Assembly (NCBI GenBank): GCA_030726915.1
Contig: JANRCR010000053.1
Span: 1-54,928 of the forward strand
Length of the DNA stretch: 54,928 nucleotides
Direction: 5' to 3'
Origin: Candidatus Nanopelagicales bacterium
Lineage (GTDB): Bacteria; Actinomycetota; Actinomycetes; S36-B12
In this document: piece by piece, positions 1 to 17,194 of the stretch
How positions within the stretch are numbered: position 1 is the stretch's first letter
How the letters are laid out: each line of letters opens with the position of its first letter
The notes under the pieces: model-generated
Told to the model about the DNA's origin: nothing
Databases searched by the model: none
What the model saw: only the letters and a program-made list of their open reading frames with translations
Made by a program: the position numbers and the translations under genes

Positions 1-968
1 GTGGCCGCGCCGGCGACCCGATCACCGTCGATCGCGAGTGCGTGGAAGTCGATCTCGCCCGTGAGCGACACGGTCTCCCAGGTCTGGGCACCGTCTGTGC
101 TGCGGAGCAGGCCGACAGGATCGGGCAGCGCGGACCCCATCCCCGGGTGACCACTGGCGACCAAGAGCTCGGCCGATCCGGCCAGGCCCATGAAGTCGTC
201 CTGCGATGCACCACGCTTGACCACCACTCCCGAGACGGGGTCGATCTCAGTCACGCCCGTGTGCGTCCCGATGAGGAGTCGGCCATCGATGTAGACGGCT
301 GCGTGCACGTGGTCGAGCGGTGTCGATAGTGCAATGAGAGAGGGGGATGCCGAAGCATCCCCCTCCGCCGCATGGCCTTGGCGCTCTAAGAACGCCCGCA
401 ACTGGTCGATCTCAACCTGCTGCGTGGTGATGATCTCCGTCGCAAGCGCTGCGACTCGTGGATCCTGGGAGTTGACGACATCTTCGGCCATGTCGATGGC
501 CCCCACGTGATGCTCGATCATGAACTCCGCGAAGAGGCGGTCAAACTCCGGCCCGCTTGCATCCTCAAGCTGGCCCAGCTGATCCTGCGTCAACATGCCG
601 GACATGCCATGCCCGCCGTGGTCACCCATGGCCTCGTCGCCGGACATCACCGGCACGCCCCACTCCTCGAGCCACGCGGTCATCTGGTCGATTTCGGGCT
701 GCTGTGCCGCCCTGATCTCGGCGGCGAGGTCCACGATCTCCGGGCTGGCCGCCCGGGTCTCGGCCAGGGTCGCCATCACGACCGCCTGCTCATGATGCGG
801 GATCATCATCTGGGCGAACATCGCATCCTCTGCTGTCGCCCCCGTCGTACCTGACGGCGTAACCATGTCCATGTCGGACATGTCGTGTGAGCCACCGCAC
901 GCCGTGAGAAGCAGGGCCCCTGCAACCACGGAGACTGCGAACGTCGATAAGCGTGTAAAGCTCCTCAT
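1..968 (-). CDS. Exported DUF305 protein fused to F510_1955-type beta-propeller domain (3' end outside window)
   Basis: The frame opens at ATG 968 and stays open to the left edge (322 codons), so the C-terminus is missing. Residues 1-25 form a lipoprotein signal (hydrophobic run ending LLTAC followed by GG). Residues about 45-195 are a DUF305 domain with its two His-rich motifs, MMIPHHEQAV and FMIEHHVGAIDMA; a Met/His-rich stretch lies between them. DUF305 proteins are four-helix ferritin-like proteins often linked with copper or other metals. After a short linker (about 198-212) the chain continues with features of the F510_1955 glycosylhydrolase family: DHVHAAVY, IGTHTGV, LLVASGHPGMG, LLRSTDG and GEIDFHAL. 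In genomes I know these are separate neighbouring genes, so the in-frame fusion is unusual. DUF6153 lies 52 bp upstream. The role in metal or stress response is inferred. Confidence 0.85.
   Translation of the reverse strand, partial: MRSFTRLSTFAVSVVAGALLLTACGGSHDMSDMDMVTPSGTTGATAEDAMFAQMMIPHHEQAVVMATLAETRAASPEIVDLAAEIRAAQQPEIDQMTAWLEEWGVPVMSGDEAMGDHGGHGMSGMLTQDQLGQLEDASGPEFDRLFAEFMIEHHVGAIDMAEDVVNSQDPRVAALATEIITTQQVEIDQLRAFLERQGHAAEGDASASPSLIALSTPLDHVHAAVYIDGRLLIGTHTGVTEIDPVSGVVVKRGASQDDFMGLAGSAELLVASGHPGMGSALPDPVGLLRSTDGAQTWETVSLTGEIDFHALAIDGDRVAGAA
340..365 (-). other. Perfect 11-bp hairpin with a cUUCGg loop inside a coding linker
   Basis: GAGGGGGATGC at 340-350 is the exact reverse complement of GCATCCCCCTC at 355-365, with CGAA between them. 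In the minus-strand transcript the loop reads UUCG closed by C-G, the very stable cUUCGg tetraloop. It falls exactly in the linker between the DUF305 and F510_1955 domains (residues 202-210). No U-run follows, so it is not a classical terminator. A role in pausing, attenuation or mRNA processing is inference. Confidence 0.6.
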
Positions 969-990
969 AACACAATTGTCCTCTCAATCG

Positions 991-1000
991 ATGACGTCAT
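991..1000. other. Perfect 10-bp palindrome ATGACGTCAT upstream of the DUF305 gene
   Basis: The self-complementary ATGACGTCAT lies in the 52-bp gap between the DUF6153 gene and the DUF305 fusion, 23 bp before the fusion's ATG. It could be an operator for a dimeric regulator, but one short palindrome can occur by chance and I know of no matching regulator. Confidence 0.2.
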
Positions 1001-1020
1001 GGTCGGCGCAGTGCCGCCCA

Positions 1021-1404
1021 TCACGTCCGCGATATTGAGAGCACCGCCAGATCAGGGGGGCGGTGAATCGTCTGCATCCGCGCTGGTGTGCTCGGTTCTA
1101 GACGCGGCAGCGACCATCGCCGCACTCGCCCGACAACTCTCGGGAGGACCAGGCTCATCACCATCAACAGGATGGCCAGACATGTCGCTGCTGCTCCGAC
1201 AATGCCCGCCGGGGATGGTGACTCAGCGGGCGCCTCCTGGACCCCGGCCAGGGGTGACTCCAGGGGCGCACCGTGCGCTTGGTGGGATGCAGCCGCTGAT
1301 GTGACACCGGCGTGATGGCAGGCCACCACGACAAGGTGGTGCATACCCACGAGGCCCAGGGCCAGGAGGGTGACCACGACAAGGCGTGGAAGCACGTGCC
1401 TCAT
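1021..1404 (-). CDS. DUF6153 family small membrane protein
   Basis: 127 aa. Residues 5-25 form an N-terminal hydrophobic helix that leads into MHHLVVVACHH, a His pair followed by a second His pair, as in DUF6153. A low-complexity Ala/Pro/Ser stretch (about 30-65) follows, then a second helix (about 67-87) and a basic tail. I chose ATG 1404 because AGGTGAGG lies just upstream; a GTG at 1413 in the same frame lacks a ribosome binding site. The gene begins 5 bp after the FGGY kinase stop and precedes the DUF305 fusion, so the three are probably cotranscribed. DUF6153, DUF305 and F510_1955 genes are commonly neighbours in actinobacteria. The function is unknown; metal-related is a guess from the His residues and partners. 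Confidence 0.75.
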   Translation of the reverse strand: MRHVLPRLVVVTLLALGLVGMHHLVVVACHHAGVTSAAASHQAHGAPLESPLAGVQEAPAESPSPAGIVGAAATCLAILLMVMSLVLPRVVGRVRRWSLPRLEPSTPARMQTIHRPPDLAVLSISRT

Positions 1405-1409
1405 CGACC

Positions 1410-2954
1410 TCACCTAATCATTGTTACCCGAGTGGAATGCGCTCGCGCGCCGAGGCCCTTGAGCCGCTTGTAGAGGCCCCGATACTCCCCGTACGCCTCT
1501 TGATACACCTCTCGTGAGGAATCCGATGGCATGAAGACTCGCTCCACCTCCACCAGACTGGCGGCCTCGGAGAGGGTGAGCTCGCCGAGAGCCACCCGCG
1601 CCCACAGGGCAGCACCGACGAGCTGGGCATCACGTGGTCGGCGTACCTGCTCAATGGGCCGGTCCAGGACGCCGGCATAGATGGAACACCACAGATCAGA
1701 CTCCGCGCCCCCACCCAAAATACGCAGCGATGGGATCGTGCGTCCGCAGAAGCGCTCATAGGAATCAAAGAGCCAGCGGGCATTGAGAGCAACGCCCTCC
1801 AGCGCCGCGCGGATCATCATGGCGCGATCGGTGCGCAGCGACATGCCCACAAAAGCCCCGCGAACATCCTTGTCTTCCACGGGACTGCGCTCACCATTCA
1901 GCCAGGGCGCAAACATCAGGCCCTCACATCCCGGTGGCGCCGTGGCAGCCTCCTCGAGGAGGGTGGGGTAGTCGGCATCCACAATCTGCTCGCGAAGCCA
2001 GCGCAGCGCACCCCCGCCGATCTCTTGATTGTTGGCCACGACCGGCAGGAGTGAGTCAAAGCCGGGGACGGATGCGATCGAATGGAGGATGTCGGTCTTT
2101 TTAAACGGTACGCGGGCACTGATCCACGAGGTTGTGGAGACGGCGATGTGGGAGGCGTAGGGCTCGATCGCACCGCTGCCGAGGATGGCTGCGTGGAGGT
2201 CGGGCACTCCACACACCACCGGGATGCTCGGGACAAGGCCCACCTCGCTCGCCACCTCGGGGAGCAGTGTGCCGAGGACCGTGCCGGTCGGCACCAGGGG
2301 CGGCAACCTATGCGGATCACGACGGGCACGCCGGATAAGACTGTCGACGTAGTGCGGCTGGGCACCGATGCGATTGTCGGTCAACCAGGACAAAATCATG
2401 GATGCCGGTGTCGCAGCGGCACGGCCGGTGAGTCGCATGCCGAGATAGTCGACCGGCTCCATCAGCCAGTGCGCCCGGGCGTACTCCGAGGGGAATTCAC
2501 GCTGAAGCAGAAGTGAGTGGCCCGTGGGATCCGCACCCGACGGGGTCGGTGCTCCCCCGGTCAAGCGGACCCACGGCACCACCTTGTTTGGCGCAAAACC
2601 CTGCACGGAGACCGGGCCGCCGATGACCTCGTGCATGTATCGACGAGCACGGGTGTCGGCCCACAAGATGACGGGGCCGACCGGCTCACCCTGAGCATCA
2701 ACCGGCACGGTCGACCCCCATTGACCGGTGATGCCGATGGCTGTCGGCTGCTCCGTCCCCATCTGCGAGGTGAGGTCGCGTATGGCGTCGGTCAGTGTCA
2801 CCCACCACTCGACAGCATCCTGAGTGGCACCGCCGTCCAGTCCAATGTCAACGGAAACGGAGCGTTGCACGCACGGACCCAGGGAGCCATCGGCGTACAC
2901 CGCCGCCACCTTGGGGCCGCCATTGCCGAGATCGACCGCGAGGGTCCAGGTCAT
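1410..2954 (-). CDS. FGGY-family carbohydrate kinase (xylulokinase-like)
   Basis: 514 aa, the usual FGGY length. The N-terminal FGGY domain starts MTWTLAVDLGNGGPKVA and contains ITGQWGSTVPVD and the PVILWADTRA signature near residue 100. The C-terminal domain has IAVSTTSWIS and LRILGGGAESDLWCSI (the phosphate-2/adenosine region). These enzymes transfer phosphate from ATP to a sugar or polyol hydroxyl in the cytoplasm. The phosphate-1 loop reads DLGNGG where the family usually has DxGT(T/S). The frame extends 49 codons upstream, but that part lies in the preceding gene, and ATG 2954 is one base after that gene's stop. This tight coupling to the lyase-like PLP enzyme suggests a shared pathway. 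The substrate is not predictable from sequence alone. Confidence 0.85.
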   Translation of the reverse strand: MTWTLAVDLGNGGPKVAAVYADGSLGPCVQRSVSVDIGLDGGATQDAVEWWVTLTDAIRDLTSQMGTEQPTAIGITGQWGSTVPVDAQGEPVGPVILWADTRARRYMHEVIGGPVSVQGFAPNKVVPWVRLTGGAPTPSGADPTGHSLLLQREFPSEYARAHWLMEPVDYLGMRLTGRAAATPASMILSWLTDNRIGAQPHYVDSLIRRARRDPHRLPPLVPTGTVLGTLLPEVASEVGLVPSIPVVCGVPDLHAAILGSGAIEPYASHIAVSTTSWISARVPFKKTDILHSIASVPGFDSLLPVVANNQEIGGGALRWLREQIVDADYPTLLEEAATAPPGCEGLMFAPWLNGERSPVEDKDVRGAFVGMSLRTDRAMMIRAALEGVALNARWLFDSYERFCGRTIPSLRILGGGAESDLWCSIYAGVLDRPIEQVRRPRDAQLVGAALWARVALGELTLSEAASLVEVERVFMPSDSSREVYQEAYGEYRGLYKRLKGLGARAHSTRVTMIR

Positions 2955-2955
2955 G

Positions 2956-4368
2956 TCAGACCTCGGGCGCCGCAACGTGCATGGCGTCCAGGACACCGCC
3001 CATGACGGAGCGCAGGGTCTGGTCTCCATCGGGCATCGCGCCAAAGCCGTACATCGCTCCACTGACCGCGGGCTCACCACGGTGGGCGAGGGCGTAGTCA
3101 ACAGCCACCCTCAGGTCGGCGAGGAAGTCCTGAGCCACGCCGGGCTGGGTATTGGGGCCGGTGATACAAAAGTGCAGGGATGGCGGAAGTTGCAGTGCAT
3201 TCATGCGCCAACCGCTGGACTTCAGCGAATCATTCACGAGATAGACGTCAACGTCATCGGACATGAAGGACGTCATAAAGAGCGGATCGCCAATGACAGT
3301 GAGCTCCGGAAGGCCGTCCCGAATGCCCTGCTGGATGACGCTGTTGGTGGTCAGGATCGAATCAGCCCGGGCGAGATAGCCATCTCGGCCGATACTCACC
3401 ATGGCGGCCCACGTTGATGCGATCAGCCCTCCGCTGCGGGAACCCGCCAGGCCGGGAGACAGATAGAGACCACCGGGCCAGTCGGTGGACGCAAACCACT
3501 GCTGCGATCGCAGTGCCGCATCACGGTAGAGAAGGACGGATGTGCCCTTGAGCGCGTAGCCGTACTTGTGGGTGTCGGCCGAGATGCTGGTCACGCCGGG
3601 GACGCGAAAATCCCAGAGGGGCACGTCGTAGCCGAGAGCCTCTGCCCAGGGAAGCAGGAATCCCCCGAGGCAGCCATCGACATGGAGCCCGACACCCCGA
3701 GCCTGTGCGAGCTCACCCAGTCGCTCAATCGGGTCGATGAGACCGTGGGCATAGTCGCCCGCGCTGCCCACGATCGCGATCGTGTTGTCATCCATGAGCG
3801 ACGCCATGGCCGGGACGTCCACGGTGAAGGAGCCGTCCACGGGTGCATCGCGCACCTCAATGCCCATCCAGTGGGCGCCCTTGCGCAGGGCAACATGCGC
3901 GGTGATGGGCAGTACGACGTTGGGCATGCGCACGTCACGCTGGACGCGAGCCTGCTCGCGGTAGGCATAGAGAGCGTGCACGAGACTGTCACTGCCGCCG
4001 GAGGTCACGACCCCCACCGGCTGCGGTGAATGGAAGAGGTCGGCCGTCATGGCCAGGATCTCTCCCTCAAATTTTGTCGCTGAGGGGTACATGTCGCGCT
4101 GTAGGACATTGGCATGGGCGAAGTGCTCAAAGACCTGCGCGAGGAAGTGATAGTGCTCGTGATCCCCGCTGTAGAGACTGCCGGACACGCGACCGGAATC
4201 ACCTCGAGCATCCTCCGCTGTGGCCATCGTGGCCACCTCGCTGAGGAGGACGTCACGGCCAACGCCCTCATCGGGGATGAGACGGAATGTCTCCGTGGTC
4301 CTGCGGTAGGGGAAGAGATCATCCAGCATTCGATCCAGATCAGATGCGGGTGCGGCCTCCTGGCTCAT
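2956..4368 (-). CDS. PLP-dependent decarboxylase/lyase resembling sphingosine-1-phosphate lyase
   Basis: 470 aa group-II PLP enzyme. It contains RVSGSLYSG (near 60), [17 protein letters not shown] (88-104), the PLP-phosphate loop TSGGSDS (122-128), the Asp of [14 protein letters not shown] (about 228-240) and the Schiff-base lysine in [16 protein letters not shown] (Lys268). The DTHKYG and KGTSV motifs match eukaryotic and bacterial sphingosine-1-phosphate lyases better than glutamate decarboxylases. That family splits phosphorylated amino-alcohols into an aldehyde and phosphoethanolamine. Unlike the eukaryotic enzyme it has no N-terminal membrane anchor. ATG 4368 overlaps the smpB stop (ATGA) and the FGGY kinase follows after 1 bp, so it is part of the ftsEX-smpB transcript. 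The family is clear; the substrate is inferred and open. Confidence 0.82.
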
Positions 4369-4844
4369 CCGTCCATGCCCTTCGATCGACGACCCGTGGC
4401 TCGCTCAGTCTCACGCTTTGCTTCACGCTCGGCGATGGCCTGCCGCTTGTCCCCCTGCTTGCGGCCCGTCGCCAGCGCAATCTCAACCTTCGCGTAGCCA
4501 TCCTTGAAGTACAGGCTAATGGGGACCAGGGTGAAGCCTTTGGCTTGGGTCTTCGCGGCCAACTTGCGGATTTCCTCCCGTTTGAGCAGGAGTTTGCGCG
4601 CACGACGGGGTTCGTGATTGGTCCAGGTCCCGAGGGCGTACTCGGGTATGTGCACACCACGAAGCCAGACTTCCCCGCTCTCGATCGTGGCGTAGCCATC
4701 CGTCAGGGTCGCGCGCCCAGCCCGCAGGGACTTGACCTCGGTGCCGGTCAGCACGAGCCCCGCCTCGATGGTGGAGTCAATCGAGTAGTCGTGGCGCGCC
4801 TTGCGATTTTGGGCGATGAGCTTGCGGCCCTGCTCCCTGGCCAT
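4365..4844 (-). CDS. smpB: SsrA-binding protein SmpB
   Basis: 159 aa. SmpB binds tmRNA and carries it to stalled ribosomes for trans-translation. Visible motifs are [11 protein letters not shown] at the N-terminus, [15 protein letters not shown], the [13 protein letters not shown] strand pair, [11 protein letters not shown] and a basic C-terminal tail ([18 protein letters not shown]) that enters the decoding centre. I chose ATG 4844, two bases after the ftsX stop, which gives the usual length; the longer frame only reads into ftsX. The ftsE-ftsX-smpB order is common in actinobacteria and other bacteria. The tmRNA gene itself is not seen in this window. Confidence 0.97.
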
Positions 4845-4846
4845 GC

Positions 4847-5755
4847 TCAGACGCGCAGGTACTTGCGCAGGGTGAGGAATGCCGCCAGACCGGCAAGAAC
4901 AATGCCCGTGATGTACAGGATGGGGACAATCGCCGCAACGGCGTCCCAACCGACGAAGGCCGTGAACTGGAAGGCGGGTGCCAGTACCCGCTCGACGACG
5001 AAGGCCTGGACGAGAATGAGGCCTCCGGTGGCAAGGGTGGCTCCCACAGCGGCGGCGATCGCGGCTTCCAGCAGGAAGGGAAGCTGAATGTAAAAGTTCG
5101 ATGCACCAACAAGTCGCATGATACCTGTCTCTCTGCGACGACTAAAGGCAGCGATACGCATCGTATTGACGATGAGGAGCACGGTCACCACGAGCATCGC
5201 GATGGCAATCACCAGGGCGATGGCCTGTAATCCTCCGAGAAGTTGGAAGAACTTTTCGAGGAATTGCCGTTGATCATTGACCTGCTCGACTCCCGGTCTG
5301 CCCTCAAAGGCAGAGGCCACGATGTCGTACTTGGTCGGATCGGAAAGTTTGACCCGGAAGGATTCAGGCAGCGCTTCGACGGTCACGCTGTCAACGATGG
5401 GAGAGTTGCGGTATTGCACGATGAAGCGGTCGAATGCCTGCTGCTGGGACTCAAAGAACACCTCCTGCACCAACGGGCGCAGGGATTCAAGATCGGCCTC
5501 AATCTGATCCTTTTGGGCGTCCGTGACCTTGCCCCCGGCGCAGGAAGGCGTCTCGGAATTGTCATTGCACAAAAAGATCGACACCTCGACCTTGTCAAAC
5601 CAGAAGTCCTTCATGGTATCGACCTGGGAGCGCACCAGAAGTGCCACACCGAAGAGGGCAAGGGACACACCGACGGTGATGATCACGGCAATCGTCATCG
5701 TCAGATTGCGCCGCAGGCCGTTGCCAACCTCACTAAAAACGAAACGAGCCCGCAT
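4847..5755 (-). CDS. ftsX: Cell division ABC transporter permease FtsX
   Basis: 302 aa. There is a cytoplasmic start, TM1 (about 20-42), a large extracellular loop (about 43-170) with a Cys pair ([12 protein letters not shown]), and then three more helices near 176-200, 225-250 and 268-292, the standard FtsX layout. FtsX with FtsE relays divisome signals to peptidoglycan hydrolases through the extracellular loop; in mycobacteria the partner is RipC. The N-terminal [19 protein letters not shown] is typical. It starts 2 bp after ftsE and ends 2 bp before smpB. A separate M23 peptidase at 46.2 kb could be a distant partner, but nothing here shows it. Confidence 0.96.
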
Positions 5756-5757
5756 CC

Positions 5758-6447
5758 CTACCTCGAATACCCGTAGACGCCGCGCGACTGATCGCGCACG
5801 AGGTGCCCCTGCTCCAACTCGATGACGCGCTTGCGCATCTGATCGACGATGGCAGCATCGTGGGTGGCCATAACGACCGTCGTCCCGGTGCGATTGATGC
5901 GTTCCAGCAACTTCATAATGCCCTCGGACGTCGTGGGGTCGAGGTTGCCCGTGGGCTCATCCGCGATGAGCATCGCCGGCTTATTGACAAACGCACGCGC
6001 GATCGCGACCCGCTGCTGTTCGCCGCCGGAGAGCTCATCGGGCATGCGCTGCTCTTTGCCCTCCAGGCCGACCAACTCGAGGACCTCAGGGACGATCCGC
6101 TGCACCTGGGCGCGGGACTTGCCAATGACTTCAAGGGCGAACGCGACGTTGTCGAAGACAGACTTGTTGGGTAGCAGTCGGAAGTCTTGAAAGACGGTGC
6201 CGATCCGACGCCGCAGCTGGGGGACCTTCCAATTCGACAGACGATTGAGGTCCTTGCCCGCCACCCACACAGCACCCTCGGTGGGTGAATCCTCCTTGAG
6301 GACGAGTCGAAGGAAGGTCGACTTGCCCGAGCCAGAGGCCCCGATGAGGAACACGAACTCGCCCTTCTCGATCTCCAGGGAAACGCCGTCGAGAGCCGGG
6401 CGCACCTGAGTCGGATAGAGCTTGGTGACGTTTTCGAACAGGATCAC
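5758..6447 (-). CDS. ftsE: Cell division ATP-binding protein FtsE
   Basis: 229 aa, the standard FtsE length. Walker A is GASGSGKST (37-45), the Q-loop lies in [11 protein letters not shown] (83-93), the ABC signature is LSGGEQQR (139-146), Walker B is MLIADEP, and the D-loop and H-switch are GNLDP and ATHD. It powers FtsX at the septum. I chose GTG 6447, which gives [12 protein letters not shown] as in FtsE proteins; the upstream extension (about 27 residues) is Pro/Arg-rich and unlike the family. A TACACT hexamer ends 6 bp before this GTG, which supports it as a leaderless start. The gene heads the ftsEX-smpB-lyase-kinase set. Confidence 0.96.
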
Positions 6448-6453
6448 CCATTG

Positions 6454-6459
6454 AGTGTA
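6454..6459 (-). promoter_or_regulatory. Candidate -10 element (TACACT) for leaderless ftsE
   Basis: The TANNNT hexamer ends 6 bases before GTG 6447, which would place the transcription start at or next to the start codon. There is no Shine-Dalgarno sequence and no obvious -35. Confidence 0.5.
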
Positions 6460-6503
6460 GGTGCTGGGGCCTCGGGGACAGGAATCGACAGGCGTACGCC
6501 GGG

Positions 6504-6529
6504 GGTGCCGAGGGGGATCCCGGGGCACC
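6504..6529 (-). terminator. Possible terminator hairpin after the Imm_superinfect gene
   Basis: GGTGCC at 6504-6509 pairs with GGCACC at 6524-6529, with a GC-rich, partly self-complementary interior. It sits in the 93-bp gap between the small membrane gene (stop 6541) and ftsE. There is no clear T-run, so confidence is low. Confidence 0.3.
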
Positions 6530-6540
6530 TGGGGGAGCTG

Positions 6541-6777
6541 CTAGTCGGCGATGACGACCGTCCGCTGCGTCCGCAGCGCCATGACCAGGGCCACGATCCA
6601 CCCGATGATGGTCCAACCCAGGAGCAGATTGATCCAAAAGACGAGCCAGTGCGGAACGTCTCGCACGGCTGCGATGCACCACGGGAGCATGTAGCCCGCG
6701 GTGACGATGGCCACGATGACAGAGACCACCTTGGTGGCGGTCCAGGATCTGGAGGAAGGCTCAACCGAATACGACAT
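6541..6777 (-). CDS. Imm_superinfect family small membrane protein
   Basis: 78 aa with two hydrophobic helices (about 14-36 and 43-68). The second carries WLVFWINLLLGWTIIGWIVALVMAL, here spanning the NLLLGWTIIGW signature of the superinfection-immunity family (PF14373, named after phage T4 Imm). Chromosomal members are widespread and mostly uncharacterised, so a phage-exclusion role should not be assumed; no phage genes are nearby. The ATG at 6777 follows a TAGTCT hexamer by 6 bases and lies 14 bp after the prfB stop. Confidence 0.8.
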   Translation of the reverse strand: MSYSVEPSSRSWTATKVVSVIVAIVTAGYMLPWCIAAVRDVPHWLVFWINLLLGWTIIGWIVALVMALRTQRTVVIAD

Positions 6778-6783
6778 GCCCGG

Positions 6784-6789
6784 AGACTA
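6784..6789 (-). promoter_or_regulatory. Candidate -10 element (TAGTCT) for the Imm_superinfect gene
   Basis: The TANNNT hexamer ends 6 bases before ATG 6777, in the short gap after the prfB stop. It is consistent with a leaderless transcript separate from prfB. Confidence 0.45.
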
Positions 6790-6791
6790 CC

Positions 6792-7904
6792 TCAGCCGCG
6801 GGTCTCCTGCTGGCGCCTCCAGCGGATTCCGGTCTCCACAAAGTCGTCGATCTCACCGTCGAGCACGGCCGATGTATTGCCGGTCTCGTGCTCGGTGCGC
6901 AGGTCCTTCACCATTTGATAGGGGTGCAGGACGTAGGACCGCATCTGGGTGCCCCAGGACCCGGCCGTGTCGGTCTTCAGGGCATTCATCTTTTCGCGCT
7001 CTTCGCGCCGACGGACCTCCAGGAGGCGCGACTGCAACACCCTCATGGCTGCCGCACGATTTTGGATCTGAGACTTCTCATTTTGGCAGGAGACGACAAT
7101 GCCGGTGGGCAGATGGGTGATGCGTACGGCCGAGTCCGTCGTGTTGACGCTTTGACCTCCGGGCCCGCTGGAGCGAAAGACATCAATACGAATATCCGTC
7201 TCGGGGATGTCGATGTGGTCGGTCTGCTCCGTCACCGGAAGGACTTCCACAGCGGCGAAGGAGGTTTGTCGGCGGCCCTGGTTGTCAAAGGGCGAGATGC
7301 GCACCAGACGATGGGTTCCCTGCTCGATGGAGAGGGTGCCGTAGGCGTAGGGGGCCTTGACCGCGAACGTCGCGGACTTAATGCCGGCTTCCTCGGCGTA
7401 GGAGGTGTCGTAGACCTCAAAGGGCCAGCCGTGGCGCTCGCAGTACCGCGTGTAGAGGCGTAGGAGCATTTCGGCCCAGTCGGCAGCATCGACCCCACCG
7501 GCTTCCGAGCGGATCGTGATGAGTGCTTCGCGAGCGTCGTACTCACCGGACAACAGTGTGCGGACCTCCATTTCGCCGATCGCGGCCTTCAGCGCGACAA
7601 GGTCGGTCGCGGCTTCCGCCCAGGAGTCCTCGTCGTCCTCACCTTCGGCGAGTTCGACCAGGGCGACTAGATCGTCTAAGCGGCGCCGGAGGGCCTCGAT
7701 CCGGCGAATGTCACTCTGCGCAAGTGACAACTCCGACGTCACCCGCTGGGCATTGGCCTGGTCATCCCACAGATCCGGAGCCGACGCTTCCTCTTCCAAG
7801 GCCGCCGCGTGCTCGCGCAGGGACGGGATATCGAGGACCTGCTCAATGCCCGCGAGGGTCTGCTCAAGTTCGGCGAGCGACTCAGGAATCTCGGGGTTGG
7901 CCAC
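6792..7904 (-). CDS. prfB: Peptide chain release factor 2
   Basis: 370 aa. RF2 ends translation at UGA and UAA. The anticodon-like tripeptide SPF appears in [15 protein letters not shown] and the catalytic loop GGQ in [17 protein letters not shown]. The C-terminal helix has [22 protein letters not shown]. The coding frame is continuous: the in-frame UGA and +1 frameshift used for autoregulation in many bacteria are absent. The start is GTG 7904 (MANPEIPE), 8 bases after a TAGGCT hexamer and without a ribosome binding site. In actinobacteria prfB commonly lies just upstream of ftsE, as here. Confidence 0.97.
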
Positions 7905-7912
7905 GGTTCGTA

Positions 7913-7918
7913 AGCCTA
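7913..7918 (-). promoter_or_regulatory. Candidate -10 element (TAGGCT) for leaderless prfB
   Basis: The TANNNT hexamer ends 8 bases before GTG 7904. No Shine-Dalgarno sequence is seen between them. It lies in the 102-bp divergent region shared with the metallophosphoesterase operon. Confidence 0.45.
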
Positions 7919-7983
7919 CGAGGGAGGTCCTCGCCCCACCACACCCGTGCCCGCAAGACCAGCCTCAGGTCCGCGCGCTGGCC

Positions 7984-7989
7984 TACACT
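7984..7989 (+). promoter_or_regulatory. Candidate -10 element (TACACT) for the metallophosphoesterase operon
   Basis: The TANNNT hexamer lies 17 bases before ATG 8007, with the ribosome binding site GGGAGG between them, giving a very short 5' leader. No convincing -35 is visible. Confidence 0.35.
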
Positions 7990-8006
7990 CTGCCCCGGGA
8001 GGACCC

Positions 8007-9800
8007 ATGTCTGGCGTTTCGCGACGACGATTCATCGCGGGTGTTTCCGCGCTTGCGATCGGCTGGGGCGTATCTCGGCAGGTGCTCGGTGATGCGCTCG
8101 CACTGCCCATGCGTGCAGCGGATGTGCCCAGCACACTGCTGCAGACAATCAAGATGTCGTCGTCCGTCGCCCGGGGTTCCTACCGGACCCTCCTAGCCGG
8201 TGCGGGAGAGGATTTCATTGCCCGCGTTGACCTCCTGGGACGAGAGGCGGATCCCCGTCGGTCCACGTCGCGACGGTCTCTCTACTACTTCGCGCACCTG
8301 TCAGACATTCACGTCATTGACGCCCAAACGCCCGCGCGTATGGATGCGATCCAGAGCATCGCCCCGGAACTTTTCACCGATGCCTGCCGGCCGCAGGACA
8401 CGCTAACCACGCATGTCCTCGCCTCCGTCGTTGACAGCGTGGTCGCAGCGCAATCCAGCAGCATCACGGGTGCGCCCCTGGCTTCGGCCATCAGCACGGG
8501 CGACAGCGCCGACAATCTCTCTGCTCTAGAGACGCGTTGGTACATCGACATCCTTGATGGCAAAGACGTGACTCCCAATAGCGGCGCGGTCGGCATGTAC
8601 GAGGGGCCCCAGATCTGGTCCGAGGCGACGTACGCCTACCACCCGGACGATCCCATGGGTGACGTCTATGGAGCCTACGGATACCCTACCGTGCCCGGCA
8701 TGCTCGCCGCCGCAGTGAGCAACCCGGTCACGTCCCAGGGACTACCCGTGCCCTGGTTCGCCGTCTACGGCAACCATGACGCGACCTACATGGGGACCTT
8801 CCGGGCCGACCCTGCACTTTTTGCATGGGCGGTCGGTAGTCGCAAGGCCGCGACCGGTGAGGCCCTTGGACTCAATTGGCTCCAGGGGTTCGCGACCGAC
8901 CTGAGCGTGGTGCAGATTGCCATCAACGCGATCCGGGAGAGCGTCGGCTTGCTGCCTGGCATCCGGGATGTCACAGCGGATCCGGCCCGCAAACTGCTCG
9001 AACGAGCAGACTTCATGCAGGCCCATCTTGACTCCCCCGCGGTGCCCGGGCCGGTGGGTCACGGGTGGACGCAGGCCAATGTGGACTCCGGCGAAACCTG
9101 GTGGAGCGCGGATATGACCCCGTATCTGCGCGTGTTTGGCCTGGATACCTGCAATCTGGCCGCTGGTGCCGACGGCGCTGTGCCCCAGGACCAGTTCGAT
9201 TGGCTCCAGGCTCAACTCGAGCAGTGCCAGACACAGGGGCGGCTCGCGATTGTCTGCAGCCACCACAACTCCTTGACACTGGAGAACGGCGCTACGCCCG
9301 TCACCGGTGGCCAGCCCCTGATCCACGCGGAGGAATTCATCGACATGCTCCTGCGCTATCCCGTCTGCATCGCGTGGCTCAATGGGCATACCCACATCAA
9401 CACGCTCACCCCGCACCTTCGGGAGGGTGGCGTGGGCGGATTCTGGGAGATCACCACCGCGTCCTGCGTTGACTTTCCTCAGCAGCAGCAACTCGTCGAA
9501 TTGATCGACAACCGCGACGGCACCCTGTCGATCTTCGTCACCGCCCTTGACCACGCGGCCCCACCGACGTGGACGCCGGGAGACCTAACCCAGGTGGGGT
9601 TGGCATCTCTCAGCCGCGAACTGTCCGCGAATGCCTGGCTGGCTGATCCTGCTCTGCGTGCGGGGTCTCCACTCGATCGCAACGTCGAACTCGTGATGCC
9701 CGCGCCCTTTGAGATGTCGGCCATCACCGATGCCGCCGTCGAATCCGAGCAGATGAGGGCGCGCGCTCACGTGATCGCGCACCGCGGAGCCGCCTCGTGA
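8007..9800 (+). CDS. Tat-exported metallophosphoesterase, TIGR03767-like
   Basis: 597 aa. The N-terminal SRRRFIAGVSALAIG is a twin-arginine signal, so the protein is probably folded and loaded with metal before export. The metallophosphoesterase motifs are in order: LSDIHVIDAQTPAR (DxH), AVYGNHDATY (GNHD), a central VVCSHHNS-like element (IVCSHHNSLTLENG) and WLNGHTHIN (GHTH). LSDIHVIDAQTPAR and the long insertions match the TIGR03767 (PPA1498-type) family of actinobacteria. The substrate is unknown; a cell-surface phosphodiester or nucleotide is likely. I chose ATG 8007 because GGGAGG lies 4-5 bases upstream; earlier in-frame codons are not signal-like. Its stop overlaps the next gene's GTG. 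Confidence 0.88.
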   Translation: MSGVSRRRFIAGVSALAIGWGVSRQVLGDALALPMRAADVPSTLLQTIKMSSSVARGSYRTLLAGAGEDFIARVDLLGREADPRRSTSRRSLYYFAHLSDIHVIDAQTPARMDAIQSIAPELFTDACRPQDTLTTHVLASVVDSVVAAQSSSITGAPLASAISTGDSADNLSALETRWYIDILDGKDVTPNSGAVGMYEGPQIWSEATYAYHPDDPMGDVYGAYGYPTVPGMLAAAVSNPVTSQGLPVPWFAVYGNHDATYMGTFRADPALFAWAVGSRKAATGEALGLNWLQGFATDLSVVQIAINAIRESVGLLPGIRDVTADPARKLLERADFMQAHLDSPAVPGPVGHGWTQANVDSGETWWSADMTPYLRVFGLDTCNLAAGADGAVPQDQFDWLQAQLEQCQTQGRLAIVCSHHNSLTLENGATPVTGGQPLIHAEEFIDMLLRYPVCIAWLNGHTHINTLTPHLREGGVGGFWEITTASCVDFPQQQQLVELIDNRDGTLSIFVTALDHAAPPTWTPGDLTQVGLASLSRELSANAWLADPALRAGSPLDRNVELVMPAPFEMSAITDAAVESEQMRARAHVIAHRGAAS

Positions 9801-10138
9801 ATCGCCGATGGATCGCCGTACCGCTGATTGCGCTCTCACTCAGCGCATGTTCCCAGGTGGCCGCCCTCACACCCGTCGGTGGAGGACCGGTGACCACAGT
9901 GCGTAATGCGGTCTACGACATCCTCGTCACGGAGCAGGTCGACATCCTTGTCGCTCCTCAGTGCGCGACATCTGAGCCGGGCATCACCTGCACTGGATCG
10001 ACCCTGGACGGACAGGTGATTCTCGCCGAAGCGGAGGGCACCGCTCCCTACGCCCTCACCATCACCATCGGATCCGAGGTCATCTTCACGGGCAACGCCG
10101 AGGATGTCCTCACCGATGCCGTGCAGGAGGCATCATGA
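9797..10138 (+). CDS. Small secreted lipoprotein of unknown function
   Basis: 113 aa. It has an N-terminal signal MNRRWIAVPLIALSLSAC with lipobox LSAC (Cys18). The remainder (about 30-113) looks like a small beta-rich domain with one Cys pair (QCATSEPGITC), resembling DUF4333-type secreted domains in size and pattern, but I cannot assign it firmly. GTG 9797 overlaps the stop of the metallophosphoesterase and the stop overlaps the following ATG, so the three proteins are translationally coupled. It probably sits on the outer face of the membrane next to the exported phosphoesterase. Confidence 0.7.
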   Translation: MNRRWIAVPLIALSLSACSQVAALTPVGGGPVTTVRNAVYDILVTEQVDILVAPQCATSEPGITCTGSTLDGQVILAEAEGTAPYALTITIGSEVIFTGNAEDVLTDAVQEAS

Positions 10139-10839
10139 ATGCACCTGAAACGACGGCAGCTCCCCTCTATCGGGCCTCAGCGATGGGGTCGGCACTCCTG
10201 CGCATGTGGCGTGCCTGGCGGATTCTCATCCCGACGATCATCATCAACGCGCTGCTTCAAGCACTCTTCATCCTGCCCAATGTCACACCGGGACTTAATC
10301 CCGCCTTCATTGTGCTGGCAGTGGCATCCTTCCTCGGACTCGTCGCGTCATTCCTGCTCGTGACCACGGCGCTCCTCGTGTCCACATCGGGCCATGTCGG
10401 AATCGGCCCCATCCTCGCGAGCTCAGCACCACGGTTCCTACCCCTGCTTGCCTGGTCCGTGGGCCTACTTCTCGCCGTGCTCATGGGCTTGATCCTGTAC
10501 GTCATCCCGGGCCTGATCATCCTGGCGGCGACGCCCTACCTATTGATCGCCGTTGTCGATGGTCAGCGCTCGCCCCTTGCGGTGAACTTTCGTACGATCC
10601 GTGCCCGGTGGGGACGATGGCTCATCACCGTGGCTCTCATGGGCATCGTGTGTTTCGTCGTGTGGTTCCTCAGCGCCCTGAATGGGTTCTTCATCACCGG
10701 GGCGCCGGGTGCCTTCCTGGGCTGGCTGCTTGCCGGATTGATCGCCTCGTGGCTTATCTGCACGTGGGTGCTGATCTATCGCGCCGTCGAGGACGATGGC
10801 GCACCCACCACCTCAGACTCCGGTCACTCCCGGCGGTAG
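10135..10839 (+). CDS. Integral membrane protein of unknown function
   Basis: 234 aa with about five or six hydrophobic helices (roughly 29-50, 60-85, 105-140, 163-186, 195-220). The layout, with GLILYVIPGLIILAATPYLLIAVVDG in the middle (a helix-Pro-helix element), resembles YciC/DUF975-like membrane proteins, without a confident match. It starts in an ATGA-type overlap with the lipoprotein gene. Its last 16 bp overlap the convergent TadG-like gene. With the lipoprotein and the Tat phosphoesterase it forms a three-gene envelope operon of unknown purpose. Confidence 0.65.
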   Translation: MNAPETTAAPLYRASAMGSALLRMWRAWRILIPTIIINALLQALFILPNVTPGLNPAFIVLAVASFLGLVASFLLVTTALLVSTSGHVGIGPILASSAPRFLPLLAWSVGLLLAVLMGLILYVIPGLIILAATPYLLIAVVDGQRSPLAVNFRTIRARWGRWLITVALMGIVCFVVWFLSALNGFFITGAPGAFLGWLLAGLIASWLICTWVLIYRAVEDDGAPTTSDSGHSRR

Positions 10840-11261
10840 CTCAAGACGGCACCCGCCTCAACGTGCAGATCGTAGGCACCCGCGGGTGTCAGCCAGCCGG
10901 AAAAGGGTGGACGCATTCGATGCGTCATGGAGACCACGACCTCGGAGCCGCGCAGGGAGACGGCGGTAAGACGTCCCTCACCGGGGGCGCGGCGCACATG
11001 GCGCTCGACAGCGCCCCGGACCCGGGCCGGATCGAGGACGATTCGCGCGGCTGGGCCGCGTGCGTAGTAGTCCGTGAGATCAACCGCCTGGGCGCCGGCA
11101 AGTGCGGCGGAATCCGCGCGAGCCTGCAGGGAGCGGCGCTCAAGAAACATGGCGGAGGCGTCGACAACGACCGCCACGGCCAGGATGCACACGACAATGA
11201 AGCCCAGGCTCAGCACGAGGATGCTGCCCTCGTCCTGACGCATCGTGGTCCATCTCATCAT
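10824..11261 (-). CDS. TadG-like Flp pilus assembly protein
   Basis: 145 aa. A charged start is followed by the membrane segment EGSILVLSLGFIVVCILAVAVVVDAS (about 11-36, motif EGSILVLSLGF), then FLERRSLQARADSAALAGAQA, the signature of TadE/G-like pilus proteins (DUF2134-type). The remaining extracytoplasmic part is short and beta-rich; full TadG proteins are often longer with a von Willebrand domain, which is absent. It overlaps the preceding TadE gene by 4 bp and is the last gene of the Tad operon. Its 3' end overlaps the convergent membrane protein gene by 16 bp. Confidence 0.8.
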   Translation of the reverse strand: MMRWTTMRQDEGSILVLSLGFIVVCILAVAVVVDASAMFLERRSLQARADSAALAGAQAVDLTDYYARGPAARIVLDPARVRGAVERHVRRAPGEGRLTAVSLRGSEVVVSMTHRMRPPFSGWLTPAGAYDLHVEAGAVLSYRRE

Positions 11262-11704
11262 TCACTCCGATAGTCGTCGATGACGGCAAAGTGCTCACCC
11301 GTCACCGGGACGGCACCCACGGTGGACTCCGCCAGGTTCTCGGGCAGGAAGGGCAGCCGCACCCGGGTGCTCACCGTCACGCGGATAGCCGACCCCGGTG
11401 CCAGACAGACTCCCTCGCAGGTGACCGTGACCTCATCCCCCCTCACCTTCACGCCCTGGTCTTCCAGGGCTATCCGCGTGGCAAGCCGAGCCGATGCGCG
11501 AGCCTGCGCGAGTGAGTCAGCCTGGACAAAGGCTCGCGCTGACTCCCTCGCTGCCTGAGTGACCGCATAGGCAGCAGCCTGGACCTGCATGGCAGCGAGT
11601 ACGACGTACACGATGGGGACGATGACGATGACGACAAGGACAACAAACTCGATCGCTGCCGCGCCCTCATCGCGCGTGAGGTGGTGACGCACGTGATTCA
11701 TCAC
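11258..11704 (-). CDS. TadE-like pseudopilin
   Basis: 148 aa. DEGAAAIEFVVLVVIVIVPI is a TadE prepilin-like motif: cleavage after the Gly and Glu at position +5 of the mature protein. A long helix with AAYAVTQAARESARAFVQ follows, then a small extracytoplasmic domain with one Cys pair (VTCEGVC). TadE-like proteins are minor pseudopilins processed by a TadV/CpaA peptidase, which is not in this window. It overlaps both neighbours by 4 bp. Confidence 0.82.
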   Translation of the reverse strand: MMNHVRHHLTRDEGAAAIEFVVLVVIVIVPIVYVVLAAMQVQAAAYAVTQAARESARAFVQADSLAQARASARLATRIALEDQGVKVRGDEVTVTCEGVCLAPGSAIRVTVSTRVRLPFLPENLAESTVGAVPVTGEHFAVIDDYRSE

Positions 11705-12093
11705 GGTCGCTCCCGGATCGCATGACCCTCCACGGACACGATCGTGGGTCCAAAGGTGCCGAGCAGCGGCAGACGACCGGTGACCCGTACGGCAACCAAT
11801 TCGGTGCCGTCGCGCGTCATCCGGGTCGCCACGATGTCCTGTGCCGCATCACCGCCGAGTGCATCCCGGAGGACATCACGGGTGCGCGCCTCAGCCACTC
11901 CCAAGCCCGCATCAGCCAGGGCACCGGCTCGCGCACCCTCAGCGGCCGCGGCGGTAAGGGTCGACCGCACGTGGAGGGCCAGCGTGATCTGGAGGACCGC
12001 GAGTGCGACGAGGAGGAGGAGTGGTGTCACGAGCGCGAACTCCACCACGGCACTCCCGCGGTCCCCCTTTATCCAGCGGCGAAGGTCATTCAC
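11701..12093 (-). CDS. TadE-like pseudopilin
   Basis: 130 aa. DRGSAVVEFALVTPLLLLVAL is a canonical TadE motif (cleavage after Gly, Glu+5), followed by LTAAAAEGARAGALADAG, the usual alanine-rich pilin helix. The C-terminal 60 residues form a small beta-rich domain. It overlaps the 62-aa pilin-like gene and the next TadE gene by 4 bp each. Two TadE proteins and one TadG-like protein in series are typical of actinobacterial Tad loci. Confidence 0.83.
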   Translation of the reverse strand: MNDLRRWIKGDRGSAVVEFALVTPLLLLVALAVLQITLALHVRSTLTAAAAEGARAGALADAGLGVAEARTRDVLRDALGGDAAQDIVATRMTRDGTELVAVRVTGRLPLLGTFGPTIVSVEGHAIRERP

Positions 12094-12278
12094 GGGCCCG
12101 ACACGCTGCTGATCGCACGATCAAGAACACTGGTGAGTGCGTCATCAGCCACGAGCCACAGGGCCGTGACAAGGCCCGCGGTCATCACCGCTACGAGGAC
12201 CCAGCCGGGGACGTCACCTCGATCGCTGGTCGTGATGCGTGCAATGAGTCGGGCAAGAGCGGTGCGGATGTGCGACAT
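12090..12278 (-). CDS. Small pilin-like peptide of the Tad locus
   Basis: 62 aa with a single membrane helix: DRGDVPGWVLVAVMTAGLV followed by TALWLVADDALTSVLD. Its place between tadC and the TadE genes is where the major Flp pilin is expected, and its size is right. The motif differs from Flp pilins: if cleaved after the Gly of DRG, mature position +5 is Trp, not Glu. I recall similar DVPGW-type peptides in other actinobacterial Tad loci, but have not checked this. Start ATG 12278 has the ribosome binding site AGAGGAG about 6 bases upstream. It is either an atypical pilin or an accessory peptide. Confidence 0.7.
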   Translation of the reverse strand: MSHIRTALARLIARITTSDRGDVPGWVLVAVMTAGLVTALWLVADDALTSVLDRAISSVSGP

Positions 12279-12345
12279 GTGAATCTCCTCTTATGTGGTT
12301 GGTGCATCTGAGTGGGTTGACCTACTGCTTGTCAGGCGGAATGAA

Positions 12346-13233
12346 CTAGGAGACGGTGAGTTGGAGACCGTGGATGCCGGGGAAGAGCGCAATGACGACG
12401 ACGATGGGCAGGATGAAGAAGACAACGGGGACGAGCATGAGCACCTCTTTGCGTCCGGCCTTTTCCAACAGCAGCCTGCGTCCCGCAGCACGTGCATCAG
12501 CCGCCTGAGCACGAAGGACATCCGCGATGGGCGTACCCCGCTCACTCGCCACAGCGATGCCGTCGACAAATCGGGCGACATCAAGGCTCGGCACGTCGTT
12601 CGCCATCTCCCGCAGCGCACCGGGGAACGTCGATCCGCCCCGCACCCGCCGAACGGTCGTGGCGAATTCGCCCGCCAGGTCACCGCGCACGGTCCCGGCC
12701 ACGCGGTCGATGGCGGCGAGGGGACCCTCACCCGCAGAGACAGCGAAGGCAACGAGCTCGGCAACCGTCGGGAGTTGCTCCGACATCCGCGCTCCACGCT
12801 GGCGCGTTGCGCGCGTAAGCGTGTGATCGTGCATGAGCCAGCCGGCTGATGCGCCGACCACAATCAGTGCAACGACCGCCGCACCCGAGACCCCCTCACC
12901 TCTCAGCCCCATGACGATGCCAATGAGGGCTCCCGCACCCGCCCCGATCGAGCACCACACGATCCGCTCGAGTCGATAGCGCTCCGTGTCCGGCTCACGT
13001 CCCGCGCGGCGCAGCCGACCCTCCAGGTCACTTCCTGCCCGACTGAGTAGGCGACTGATCGGCGCCAGGAGCAACTGGTGCAGCGCAGCAACCGGTCCAT
13101 TCTCGACCGGCATGCGACGTTGACCACGCAGGCGAACCGTCAGTCGGGGGCGGCGATGGGCGGCCAGTGCGCCGACAATGAGCACGAGCGCAGCGCCGAT
13201 GATGAGCCCGAGAAGCCCGCCTCCGGCACTCAT
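12346..13233 (-). CDS. tadC: Tad secretion inner-membrane protein TadC
   Basis: 295 aa with the type II secretion F domain (about 150-270): EQLPTVAELVAFAVSAGEGPLAAIDRVA and FVDGIAVASERGTPIADVLRAQA are diagnostic in short form (AVSAGEGPLAAI, SERGTPIADVL). Helices lie near 5-25, 95-135 and 268-290. TadC forms the inner-membrane platform with TadB, driven by the TadA ATPase. It overlaps tadB by 4 bp. Downstream is a 67-bp gap before the pilin-like gene that holds only that gene's ribosome binding site. Confidence 0.9.
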   Translation of the reverse strand: MSAGGGLLGLIIGAALVLIVGALAAHRRPRLTVRLRGQRRMPVENGPVAALHQLLLAPISRLLSRAGSDLEGRLRRAGREPDTERYRLERIVWCSIGAGAGALIGIVMGLRGEGVSGAAVVALIVVGASAGWLMHDHTLTRATRQRGARMSEQLPTVAELVAFAVSAGEGPLAAIDRVAGTVRGDLAGEFATTVRRVRGGSTFPGALREMANDVPSLDVARFVDGIAVASERGTPIADVLRAQAADARAAGRRLLLEKAGRKEVLMLVPVVFFILPIVVVIALFPGIHGLQLTVS

Positions 13234-14081
13234 GCCAGCACCCGTGGGTCATCGGGGAGGCGACCGATGGTCGTCATGACCCGGTAGGCGACAACGGAGA
13301 GCAGCGCCGAACCCACCAGGATCAGCGCGCCCGTCATGGTGGAGTACGCCGCAACCGTCTCCGGACGTGTGCACAGCAACAGCAGCGTGATCCAGGGAGC
13401 AGCCACAGCCACGCGGGCGGCGTTGACGGTCCAACTCTGGCGCGCCTCAATCTCACCACGGGCGCGGGCATCCTGGCGTAGGAAGTCACTCAGGGTTGCC
13501 AGCACGCGGCCGAGATCGCTGCCACCCACATCTCGAGCTATGCCCAGGGCCACGATCACCCGATCCGCTACGGGATCGCGCACCGTGTCCTTCAAGGTGT
13601 CCAGGGACGTCGCAAAGGAGCCGCTGGCGCGGTAGTCCCCGCCGAAGGTCAGGAACGCCGGACGCAGGGCTTCCGGACCTCGCACCCCCAGGTCATTCAC
13701 CGCCTCCGGCAACGACATTCCGGCACGGACCGCAGAGCCGAGCATGTCAACGGCATCGGGCCAGGCCGCTCGTAGCGCACGCCCGCGCCCGCGGGCACGT
13801 CGCTTCAATACGGAAATGGGCAGATAGGCAGCCACCAGTCCCGCCAGGGCCGCAACCATGACCACACCCGATATGGCCAGGGTCAGCAACACCGTCACGA
13901 GGGCAAGACCGATGCATGCGGCGATGACACCGCTCGGGCCGACCCGATCGAGTCCGGCGCGATCGATGAGTCGTTGCAGCCGTGACGGACCAGGCTCCTG
14001 AACGCGCGGGGAGGTGGTCATGCCGAGGATGACCAGCAGAACTCCGGCTCCAATGGCGAGCCCGAGGAGAGCGCCGATCAT
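13230..14081 (-). CDS. tadB: Tad secretion inner-membrane protein TadB
   Basis: 283 aa type II secretion F-domain protein. Helices lie near 3-20, 52-90 (two), 222-240 and 247-270. The F domain includes WPDAVDMLGSAVRAGMSLPEAV, IALGIARDVGGSDLGRVL-like sequence (VALGIARDVGGSDLG) and RQDARARGEIEARQSW. TadB pairs with TadC as the pilus assembly platform. The gene overlaps tadA and tadC by 4 bp each. Confidence 0.9.
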   Translation of the reverse strand: MIGALLGLAIGAGVLLVILGMTTSPRVQEPGPSRLQRLIDRAGLDRVGPSGVIAACIGLALVTVLLTLAISGVVMVAALAGLVAAYLPISVLKRRARGRGRALRAAWPDAVDMLGSAVRAGMSLPEAVNDLGVRGPEALRPAFLTFGGDYRASGSFATSLDTLKDTVRDPVADRVIVALGIARDVGGSDLGRVLATLSDFLRQDARARGEIEARQSWTVNAARVAVAAPWITLLLLCTRPETVAAYSTMTGALILVGSALLSVVAYRVMTTIGRLPDDPRVLA

Positions 14082-15319
14082 GCCGCTGCCCTCGCGGGGC
14101 GCAGCAGCTGCGGCAGGTCAAAACCGGCGGCGGCAAATCGATCCTCGTGCGGAGGGAATCCTGTGCCGCGCATCAGCACCGTCCCGCGGCGCGTGAAAAT
14201 CTCGGCGATCTCGACCACGCCGGCTTCAACACGACCGGGTAGGGCGGCGATCTCACGAATCTGTCGGCGACCATCGCGCGCGGTCGCCGTGTGCACCACG
14301 ATGTCGACACAGCCCGCGACGGTCGGCACCACAAAGTCGGCCGCGATGTTTTGGCCCGCGAGGAGGGGAAGGGTGCACAGTTTGGTGACCGCCTCACGCG
14401 CAGAGTTGGCATGCAAAGTCGCCGCCGACGGCAGGCCGCTATTCATGGCAATGAGCAGATCCAGGGCCTCCGCCTGTCGGACCTCTCCGACGATGAGGCG
14501 CGATGGACGCATGCGGAGTGCCTCCTTGACCAGCCTGCGAAGCGGTATCTCACCCGTGCCCTCGAGGCTGGGGTCGCGCGTTTGCATGGCTACCCAGTCC
14601 GGGTGATGGGGAAGGTGGATCTCAAAGACCTCCTCGCAGCTGATGATGCGTTCACTGGAGGGCACACACCCGAGGAGCGCATTGAGGAGCGTTGTCTTGC
14701 CCGCTTGCGTGCCACCCGCCACCACACAATTGAGCCCGCTCACCATGCAGGCATCCAGAAAATCAGCGGCCTCAGCCGTCAGGCTGCCGGTCGGGACAAG
14801 CTCATGAATGTCCACCGGCCGCTGGACGAATCGTCGAATGTTCACGGCCCAGTGGGCTCGCGTGATGTCCGGGATCGTCACGTGCAGGCGGCTGCCATCC
14901 GGCAGCATCGCGTCGACAAACGGGGTGGAGAGGTCGATGCGACGCCCCGACCACTGCAACATGCGCTCCACCAGGCTACGTACCTGCGCGTCGGTGAGCA
15001 CAGCGGTGGTGAGTTCACTTCGTCCCGCCCGGGCCACAAAAATGCGCCCCGGGGCATTGATCCAGATCTCCTCAATATCGGGATCATCGAAGAATCTCTG
15101 CAGTGGGCCGAATCCAGCCACATCGTCCAGGACCTGCTGGGAGACCGAGTCGAGGTCGTCCATCATGGTGCTGTCATCGTCCTCGCGTGCGGCGTAGCGA
15201 CGTATCGCCATGCGCACGAGATCCTGGACGGCCTCGCGATCTCGCAGGGGATCAAGACCCCCGCGCCGAATCGCTTCTCGCACATCTCCTTCGATGATGT
15301 CCTGCGTGCTGTGTGTCAC
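14078..15319 (-). CDS. tadA: Tad/CpaF-type pilus assembly ATPase
   Basis: 413 aa CpaF-family ATPase. The N-terminal region has QVLDDVAGFGPLQRFF and IEEIWINAPGRIF. The motor domain has Walker A GGTQAGKTT (about 202-210), an Asp-box region near ISCEEVFEIHLPH, Walker B/His-box RLIVGEVRQAEALDLL and ATLHANSA. The Walker A loop reads GTQAGKT rather than the more common GTGSGKT but keeps the key Lys and Thr. I prefer GTG 15319, which has AGGGGAGAGG just upstream; ATG 15337 in the same frame lacks a ribosome binding site. It is the first gene of the Tad operon; CpaE/TadZ, secretin and peptidase genes are not in the window. Confidence 0.9.
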   Translation of the reverse strand: MTHSTQDIIEGDVREAIRRGGLDPLRDREAVQDLVRMAIRRYAAREDDDSTMMDDLDSVSQQVLDDVAGFGPLQRFFDDPDIEEIWINAPGRIFVARAGRSELTTAVLTDAQVRSLVERMLQWSGRRIDLSTPFVDAMLPDGSRLHVTIPDITRAHWAVNIRRFVQRPVDIHELVPTGSLTAEAADFLDACMVSGLNCVVAGGTQAGKTTLLNALLGCVPSSERIISCEEVFEIHLPHHPDWVAMQTRDPSLEGTGEIPLRRLVKEALRMRPSRLIVGEVRQAEALDLLIAMNSGLPSAATLHANSAREAVTKLCTLPLLAGQNIAADFVVPTVAGCVDIVVHTATARDGRRQIREIAALPGRVEAGVVEIAEIFTRRGTVLMRGTGFPPHEDRFAAAGFDLPQLLRPARAAA

Positions 15320-17187: not shown

Positions 17188-17194
17188 GGGACCC

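Follow-up and report, generated by a model that had tools for sequence, protein, structure and literature searches.

A C(UUCG)G sequence forms a hyperstable tetraloop hairpin. The function of intrinsic terminators that lack a U-tract is reportedly disputed, as the titles of Ahmad 2020 and Czyz 2014 have it. I-shaped (U-less) intrinsic terminators have been described in mycobacteria (excerpt of PMC12288462), and quasipalindrome template switching is documented in E. coli lacZ reporters (excerpt of PMC7202029). We analyzed a hairpin located between the two domains of a fused bacterial gene. Among the matches listed for the literature on in-gene palindromes, U-less terminators, quasipalindromes, domain-join hairpins, DUF305 and F510_1955, this linker element was absent.

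The stretch of DNA analyzed here (the window) comprises 54,928 nucleotides of contig JANRCR010000053.1 from a Candidatus Nanopelagicales bacterium. A fused open reading frame was identified from its frame and domain matches at positions 3-968 of the minus strand; 322 of its codons are present and its C-terminal end is missing at the contig start. Profile matches placed a DUF305 domain (PF03713, also the CopM-type model NF049983) at residues 48-194 (positions 387-827, minus strand, E 1.4e-48) and an F510_1955-type domain (NF045728), cut by the contig start, at residues 217-318 (positions 15-320, minus strand). The match to NF045728, the F510_1955 glycosylhydrolase model, scored 105.8 bits, below the cut-off of 175 that applies to a whole protein. 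Of the 246 model positions, only 3-107 are covered, because the contig starts inside the gene. Fourteen complete fused relatives have 421-446 codons (match start to stop). The N-terminus of the fused frame contains LLTACGG, which we take to resemble a lipoprotein signal motif. CopM is copper-binding and is the subject of PMC4335983 (excerpt).

The surroundings of the gene were inspected as well. A DUF6153 gene (positions 1021-1413, minus strand) lies immediately upstream of the fused gene in the window, and in the congener G028 the fused gene is preceded by a similar frame (L143, approximately 6301-6711, by eye). A tmRNA gene is located close behind the fused gene in the congener G029 (L142:8841-9206, detected with Rfam), and apparently in G028 too (L143, from approximately 8200, by eye).

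The two domain matches are separated by a linker of 22 residues (195-216, computed from the residue numbers; positions 321-386, minus strand). A sequence-only reading of this DNA had described a perfect stem of 11 bp, capped by a C(UUCG)G loop, on the coding strand at the domain join, and this description proved exact. The hairpin occupies positions 340-365 of the minus strand (stem 340-350 with 355-365, loop 351-354). It lies within the fused frame at codons 202-210, between the DUF305 domain and the NF045728 match. Read on the minus strand from 365 to 340, the sequence is GAGGGGGATGC-TTCG-GCATCCCCCTC, with 11 Watson-Crick pairs. We obtained a minimum free energy of -23 kcal/mol, and none of 200 dinucleotide shuffles was as stable. 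The nine hairpin codons, E202-S210 (E G D A S A S P S; positions 339-365, minus strand), make up 27 nt. This is the extra length of the linker in comparison with the 54-nt linkers of some other genera, and the hairpin codons were placed in that extra length by a linker alignment that is inherently uncertain. An Rfam scan of six sources detected nothing at the hairpin, and its sole match at the gathering score was the tmRNA in L142. The hairpin is 339 bases away from the contig start of the window, and the contig of another congener, G031, stops 35 bases past its hairpin. We consider an assembly artefact unlikely, since three congeners have related hairpins in the same linker.

We wanted to establish the age of the hairpin relative to the age of the fusion. 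The gene was matched in 63 of 85 genomes of the family; several genera have it fused, and others as split neighbours. A single branch of the second-domain tree divided 16 fused rows from 20 split rows with a support of 100/100 and recurred in all 200 bootstrap trees; this tree carries warnings for long branches, for the half-filled row of the window and for an odd letter make-up in four rows. L024 and L049 together make up a single fused gene interrupted by an internal TAG; it was counted as fused in the tree, and its linker has no hairpin. The set of fused linkers comprised 26 rows, 11 of which were second copies of the same contigs, leaving 15 distinct linkers (four of this genus, 11 of others). 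G031 (L014) is missing from the set because its second domain is cut off, and we presume it to be fused. Linkers measured 54-66 nt in other genera (11 distinct, intact fused genes), while the four fused genes of this genus had 81 (window), 81 (G028), 108 and 120 nt. No hairpin comparable to that of the window was found in the 11 linkers outside the genus, where the strongest reached -16.4 kcal/mol (L017). In G028 the longer linker is present and the hairpin is absent. Judged by these comparisons, the hairpin probably appeared later than the fusion, because the fused genes form one clade and the linkers of other genera are shorter and contain no comparable hairpin.

According to the sequence-only reading, the hairpin could be a relic of an intergenic terminator captured when two genes fused. 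We therefore turn to the unfused relatives, among which there were 22 distinct split pairs (25 rows, minus L024 and L049, which are one fused gene, and L096, which duplicates L155). A hairpin of -20 kcal/mol or stronger between the two domain matches was detected in only two of these pairs, and in one of them (L145) it falls in signal-peptide codons. The other (L070) is a Streptomyces pair with a hairpin of -41.5 kcal/mol. This pair agrees with an origin as a relic, as does the resemblance of the GC-rich, T-tract-less linker hairpin to the strongest gene-end hairpins in the genome sample. The rarity of strong hairpins between split genes, the single clade of fused genes, and the 11 outside linkers without comparable hairpin or extra length all argue against it. 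A captured terminator is very improbable on this evidence, and that claim did not survive the comparison.

In the unfused loci L145 and L146 we also observed a small frame with a GMTCxHC motif between the DUF305 and F510_1955 genes. This motif is presumably that of copper chaperones, and the presence of the frame between the split genes suggests a copper-related operon.

Further, we looked for transcription signals around the stem. The linker hairpin has the GC-rich stem of an intrinsic terminator (11 bp, -23 kcal/mol). No U-tract follows it, the coding-strand tail being TCTCATTGCACT, and a terminator scan of window positions 1-20000 did not report the hairpin site. The hairpin does not stand after a stop codon, and the reading frame is open across the stem. 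The missing U-tract is a weak argument against a terminator, because the eight strongest gene-end hairpins in the genome sample (14-21 bp, -28 to -42 kcal/mol) have no T-tracts either, although for one of them the tail was visible over 4 bases only. The list of gene-end hairpins contains 29 rows from 186 gene ends, and one of these rows is the linker hairpin itself, placed behind a spurious antisense ORF. A T-rich tail is present at a weaker gene-end hairpin (L136). The intrinsic terminators of this genome, if they are such, may be U-less. Termination at the linker hairpin appears unlikely.

Pausing or attenuation by the predicted mRNA hairpin, which the sequence-only reading had also proposed, is possible. 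A selected mRNA element would slow ribosomes or RNA polymerase between the domains, or would protect the upstream message; it would thereby tune the amount of DUF305-only versus full-length product, or let the first domain fold. We regard such an element as a serious possibility, although less than probable. Several observations on translation and transcription signals count against it. The 150 nt that precede the stem contain no slippery heptamer XXXYYYZ, whichever frame is read, and beyond the stem an in-frame ATG does not appear until 50 codons on, the first GTG or TTG being at codon 11. A frameshift signal and an internal start were rejected on these grounds. Within the 5' arm, GGAGGGGGATG does not stand in frame, and G029 has not kept it. 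The absence of a U-tract likewise weighs against an mRNA element. A review deems pauses caused by structure likely transient, since the ribosome unwinds them, and cites work with a negative as well as work with no significant correlation between mRNA structure and translation efficiency. An extended form of this reading is an in-gene valve tuned by translation or transcription, which would yield a DUF305-only and a full-length lipoprotein from one gene. Such a valve would replace the separate dosage control lost at fusion, and each species would re-tune it through a longer or stronger stem. We consider the valve quite unlikely.

The sequence-only reading had proposed a search for conserved pairing in related genomes and counted a lack of it as refuting; no such lack was found. 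Among 11 genomes of the genus, the gene extends across the linker in five (window, G024, G028, G029 and G031); G030 has the DUF305 part only, and the five other genomes gave no match. Pairing was kept in four of the five congeners with the gene, despite codon changes in and outside the core of a hairpin encoded in extra linker codons, and it is weak by covariation. In G031 the stem has 15 bp (-35 kcal/mol). In G029 the same stem is present, with G-C and C-G in place of A-U and U-A (-29.5 kcal/mol), and in G024 a stem of 9+6 bp surrounds a 2x2 internal loop (-28.7 kcal/mol). Folding of G028 gave no comparable stem. The loop is of the UNCG type in the window (UUCG) and in G029 (UGCG), and a C(UNCG)G loop is absent in G031 and G024, which both have C(CUCG)G.

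Third-position identity at shared residues was 0.42-0.62 among the five genes, and a 39-nt segment folded at -25.3 to -32.9 kcal/mol in four of the five. We simulated the decay of the hairpin on a star tree with a hairpin-bearing ancestor, keeping the amino acids of each lineage, with synonymous codons decaying as fast as observed. The four sequences' summed energy was reached in 0-0.075% of 4000 draws in nine settings. With a threshold of -25 kcal/mol and a choice of four that were both set after seeing the data, and with a true tree that is not a star, all four sequences reached -25 or better in 0-0.1% of draws, and at least four of five did so in 0-0.13% (0.5% under slower decay). Script energies, here as well as in the strand comparison and for the synonymous versions, came out approximately 1-2 kcal/mol weaker than the folding tool's, and this held for both real and simulated sequences. 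The amino acids of G028 hardly permit the fold (0-0.1%), and the fifth lineage adds almost nothing to the decay test.

We then assessed covariation on the four sequences. In the 17-pair structure, double-sided changes were found in three pairs, compared with a shuffled mean of 1.0 (19 of 500 shuffles as high). The paired-cell share (164/500), the number of further pair types (333/500) and the covariation score (67/500) of the same structure did not stand out. In the 11-bp core, two pairs had double-sided changes as compared with 0.8 in shuffled data (61/500). All four substitutions in the G029 core are A/T-to-G/C transitions, which makes complementary outcomes easier; by hand reckoning, the chance of two complete pairs was approximately 0.2. 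Taken together, these comparisons weakly suggest that pairing has been kept beyond synonymous decay, with covariation weak on four sequences. The retained fold of the 39-nt segment despite sequence change and the three double-sided pairs of 17 are what a selected mRNA element would produce. In G024 stability is kept by a longer outer stem where the inner one is broken, which fits an mRNA element better than template switching. The hairpin is absent from G028, and no comparable one is in the 11 intact fused linkers outside the genus, which argues against selection on the mRNA.

Selection on the mRNA could also leave a preference for the sense strand, which we looked for in four segments and in the called genes. 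None was found. The fold sums of the four segments were -112.5 for sense and -108.0 for antisense, and two of the four folded better as antisense, which also speaks against an mRNA element. Among called genes, a hairpin of -20 or stronger was present on the sense strand in 16 and on the antisense strand in 17. One-mismatch stems in called genes, counted on the coding strand, had G-U in 23 cases and A-C in 23. Since there is no strand preference, the conservation does not point to the mRNA in particular.

We asked how unusual the hairpin is in this genome. The genome sample had 388,269 bases, consisting of the window and 20 stretches, one of which was all N, and the genes were our own ORF calls. 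Inside called genes there were six perfect stems of at least 11 bp with loops of 3-8, whereas 8 synonymous-codon shuffles gave 1.4 on average. The strongest of the six (L120) probably precedes the true start and thus lies outside the true coding sequence. Stems of such length occur approximately once per 60 kb of genes here, and therefore one is expected per window of approximately 55 kb. By energy, the linker hairpin ranks fourth among 339 called genes. It is unusual for a single gene, yet about one such hairpin per window is expected.

These frequencies bear on whether the hairpin arose by chance, from a palindrome-prone peptide (Glu/Gly/Asp followed by Ala/Ser/Pro) in a GC-rich genome, and was inherited by close relatives. 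For its own peptide and the codon usage of this genome, a stem this long appeared in 1.4% of synonymous versions. This share, the density of in-gene stems and the weakness of the covariation tests are compatible with chance. Against chance stands the fold kept in four genes despite the low third-position identity among the five, and we consider this origin unlikely.

The exact core GGGGATGC...GCATCCCC was found at one site in 2.2 Mb and is thus single-copy. A looser core pattern gave one copy each in three of 11 genus genomes, all three at the linker locus. A dispersed palindromic repeat, REP-like or similar to Rickettsia palindromic elements, could have been inserted in frame, and the approximately 27 nt of extra, in-frame and perfectly palindromic linker would agree with such an insertion. 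The single site of the exact core and the restriction of the looser pattern to one locus count against it; we rejected membership in either class, as there are no multiple copies per genome, and give this origin hardly any credence.

For comparison, we assessed the retention of four other strong hairpins of this genome. We aligned 30 congener loci, of which six did not cover the hairpin columns; one was without a match, and weaker, mostly paralogous matches were left out. Two other strong coding hairpins were retained in 0 of 9 congeners each; therefore palindromes are not generally kept. The loss of these two coding hairpins, as against the retention of one in signal-peptide codons (2 of 2), would fit selection on mRNA.

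The hairpin in signal-peptide-like codons has 12 bp (L119:10865-10893; G000 contig C4) and lies at the N-terminus of a 248-aa protein without a Pfam match. In the orthologue from G022 (L174, 63% identity) no base of it differs, and in G029 (L178) one loop base does. It was thus kept in both covered congeners, where the flanking DNA is alike too. The remaining one is a perfect 16-bp hairpin (L120:5532-5567; G000 contig C4) just before an ABC-transporter permease frame (PF00528). It stands approximately 75 bases past the end of another frame (by eye) and is probably intergenic. It was kept in all four covered congener loci (L162, L164, L167 and L168; three others did not cover it), and both arms have changed in two of these four loci. 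It is a better-supported conserved hairpin than that of the linker.

Our best explanation, to which we give slightly less than even confidence, is a palindromic, in-frame and genus-specific lengthening of a flexible linker in a DUF305-F510_1955 lipoprotein gene that had already fused; template switching, acting mainly on the DNA, may hold the two arms complementary. The hairpin would have been present in the common ancestor of the five genus genes and lost or scrambled in G028. The protein sequence of the linker would be nearly free to vary. Quasipalindrome template-switch mutation, in which one arm is copied from the other, would keep the arms complementary. The mRNA hairpin would be tolerated, and would at most slightly slow ribosomes or polymerase between the domains. 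We prefer a DNA-level reading because there is no strand preference and because perfect hairpins are in excess in genes. Copying between the arms by template switching would be the most economical cause, with mild selection on mRNA as the main rival. Besides the weak covariation, the kind of changes in the G029 core and the threshold set after seeing the data, three observations count against this explanation. The hairpin is known in only four sequences, and the two other strong coding hairpins were each kept in 0 of 9 congeners. Further, pure palindrome copying predicts perfect arms, and G024 has two mismatches inside a longer stem.

In summary, what the present data mostly settle is how old the element is relative to the fusion, and they dispose of the idea of a terminator relic. 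Some sister species have the hairpin and others lack it; if the pairing is selected, the locus would therefore offer a clean natural test of whether folding or dosage is controlled by coding hairpins at domain joins. If template switching keeps the pairing, compensatory-looking changes would arise without RNA selection, which calls for caution in covariation tests.

Compared with known systems, the linker hairpin resembles C(UUCG)G tetraloop hairpins in the loop and closing pair of the window, and the C(UGCG)G of G029 fits UNCG; it differs from them in that G031 and G024 have C(CUCG)G, which is outside UNCG, so the exact loop is not conserved. With Rickettsia palindromic elements and REP repeats it shares a palindrome and possibly an in-frame insertion within a gene, but the linker hairpin is single-copy. 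It is also, we assume, far shorter than Rickettsia palindromic elements. The I-shaped mycobacterial terminators are likewise GC-rich hairpins without a U-tract in an actinobacterium. In the excerpt of PMC12288462, however, they lie at most 50 bp downstream of a stop codon, whereas the linker hairpin is inside an open frame. In comparison with quasipalindrome mutation (excerpt of PMC7202029), our case is inferred from four sequences alone and the arms of G024 are imperfect. The similarity lies in imperfect inverted repeats that would be rewritten from the other arm, so that the arms match without RNA selection.
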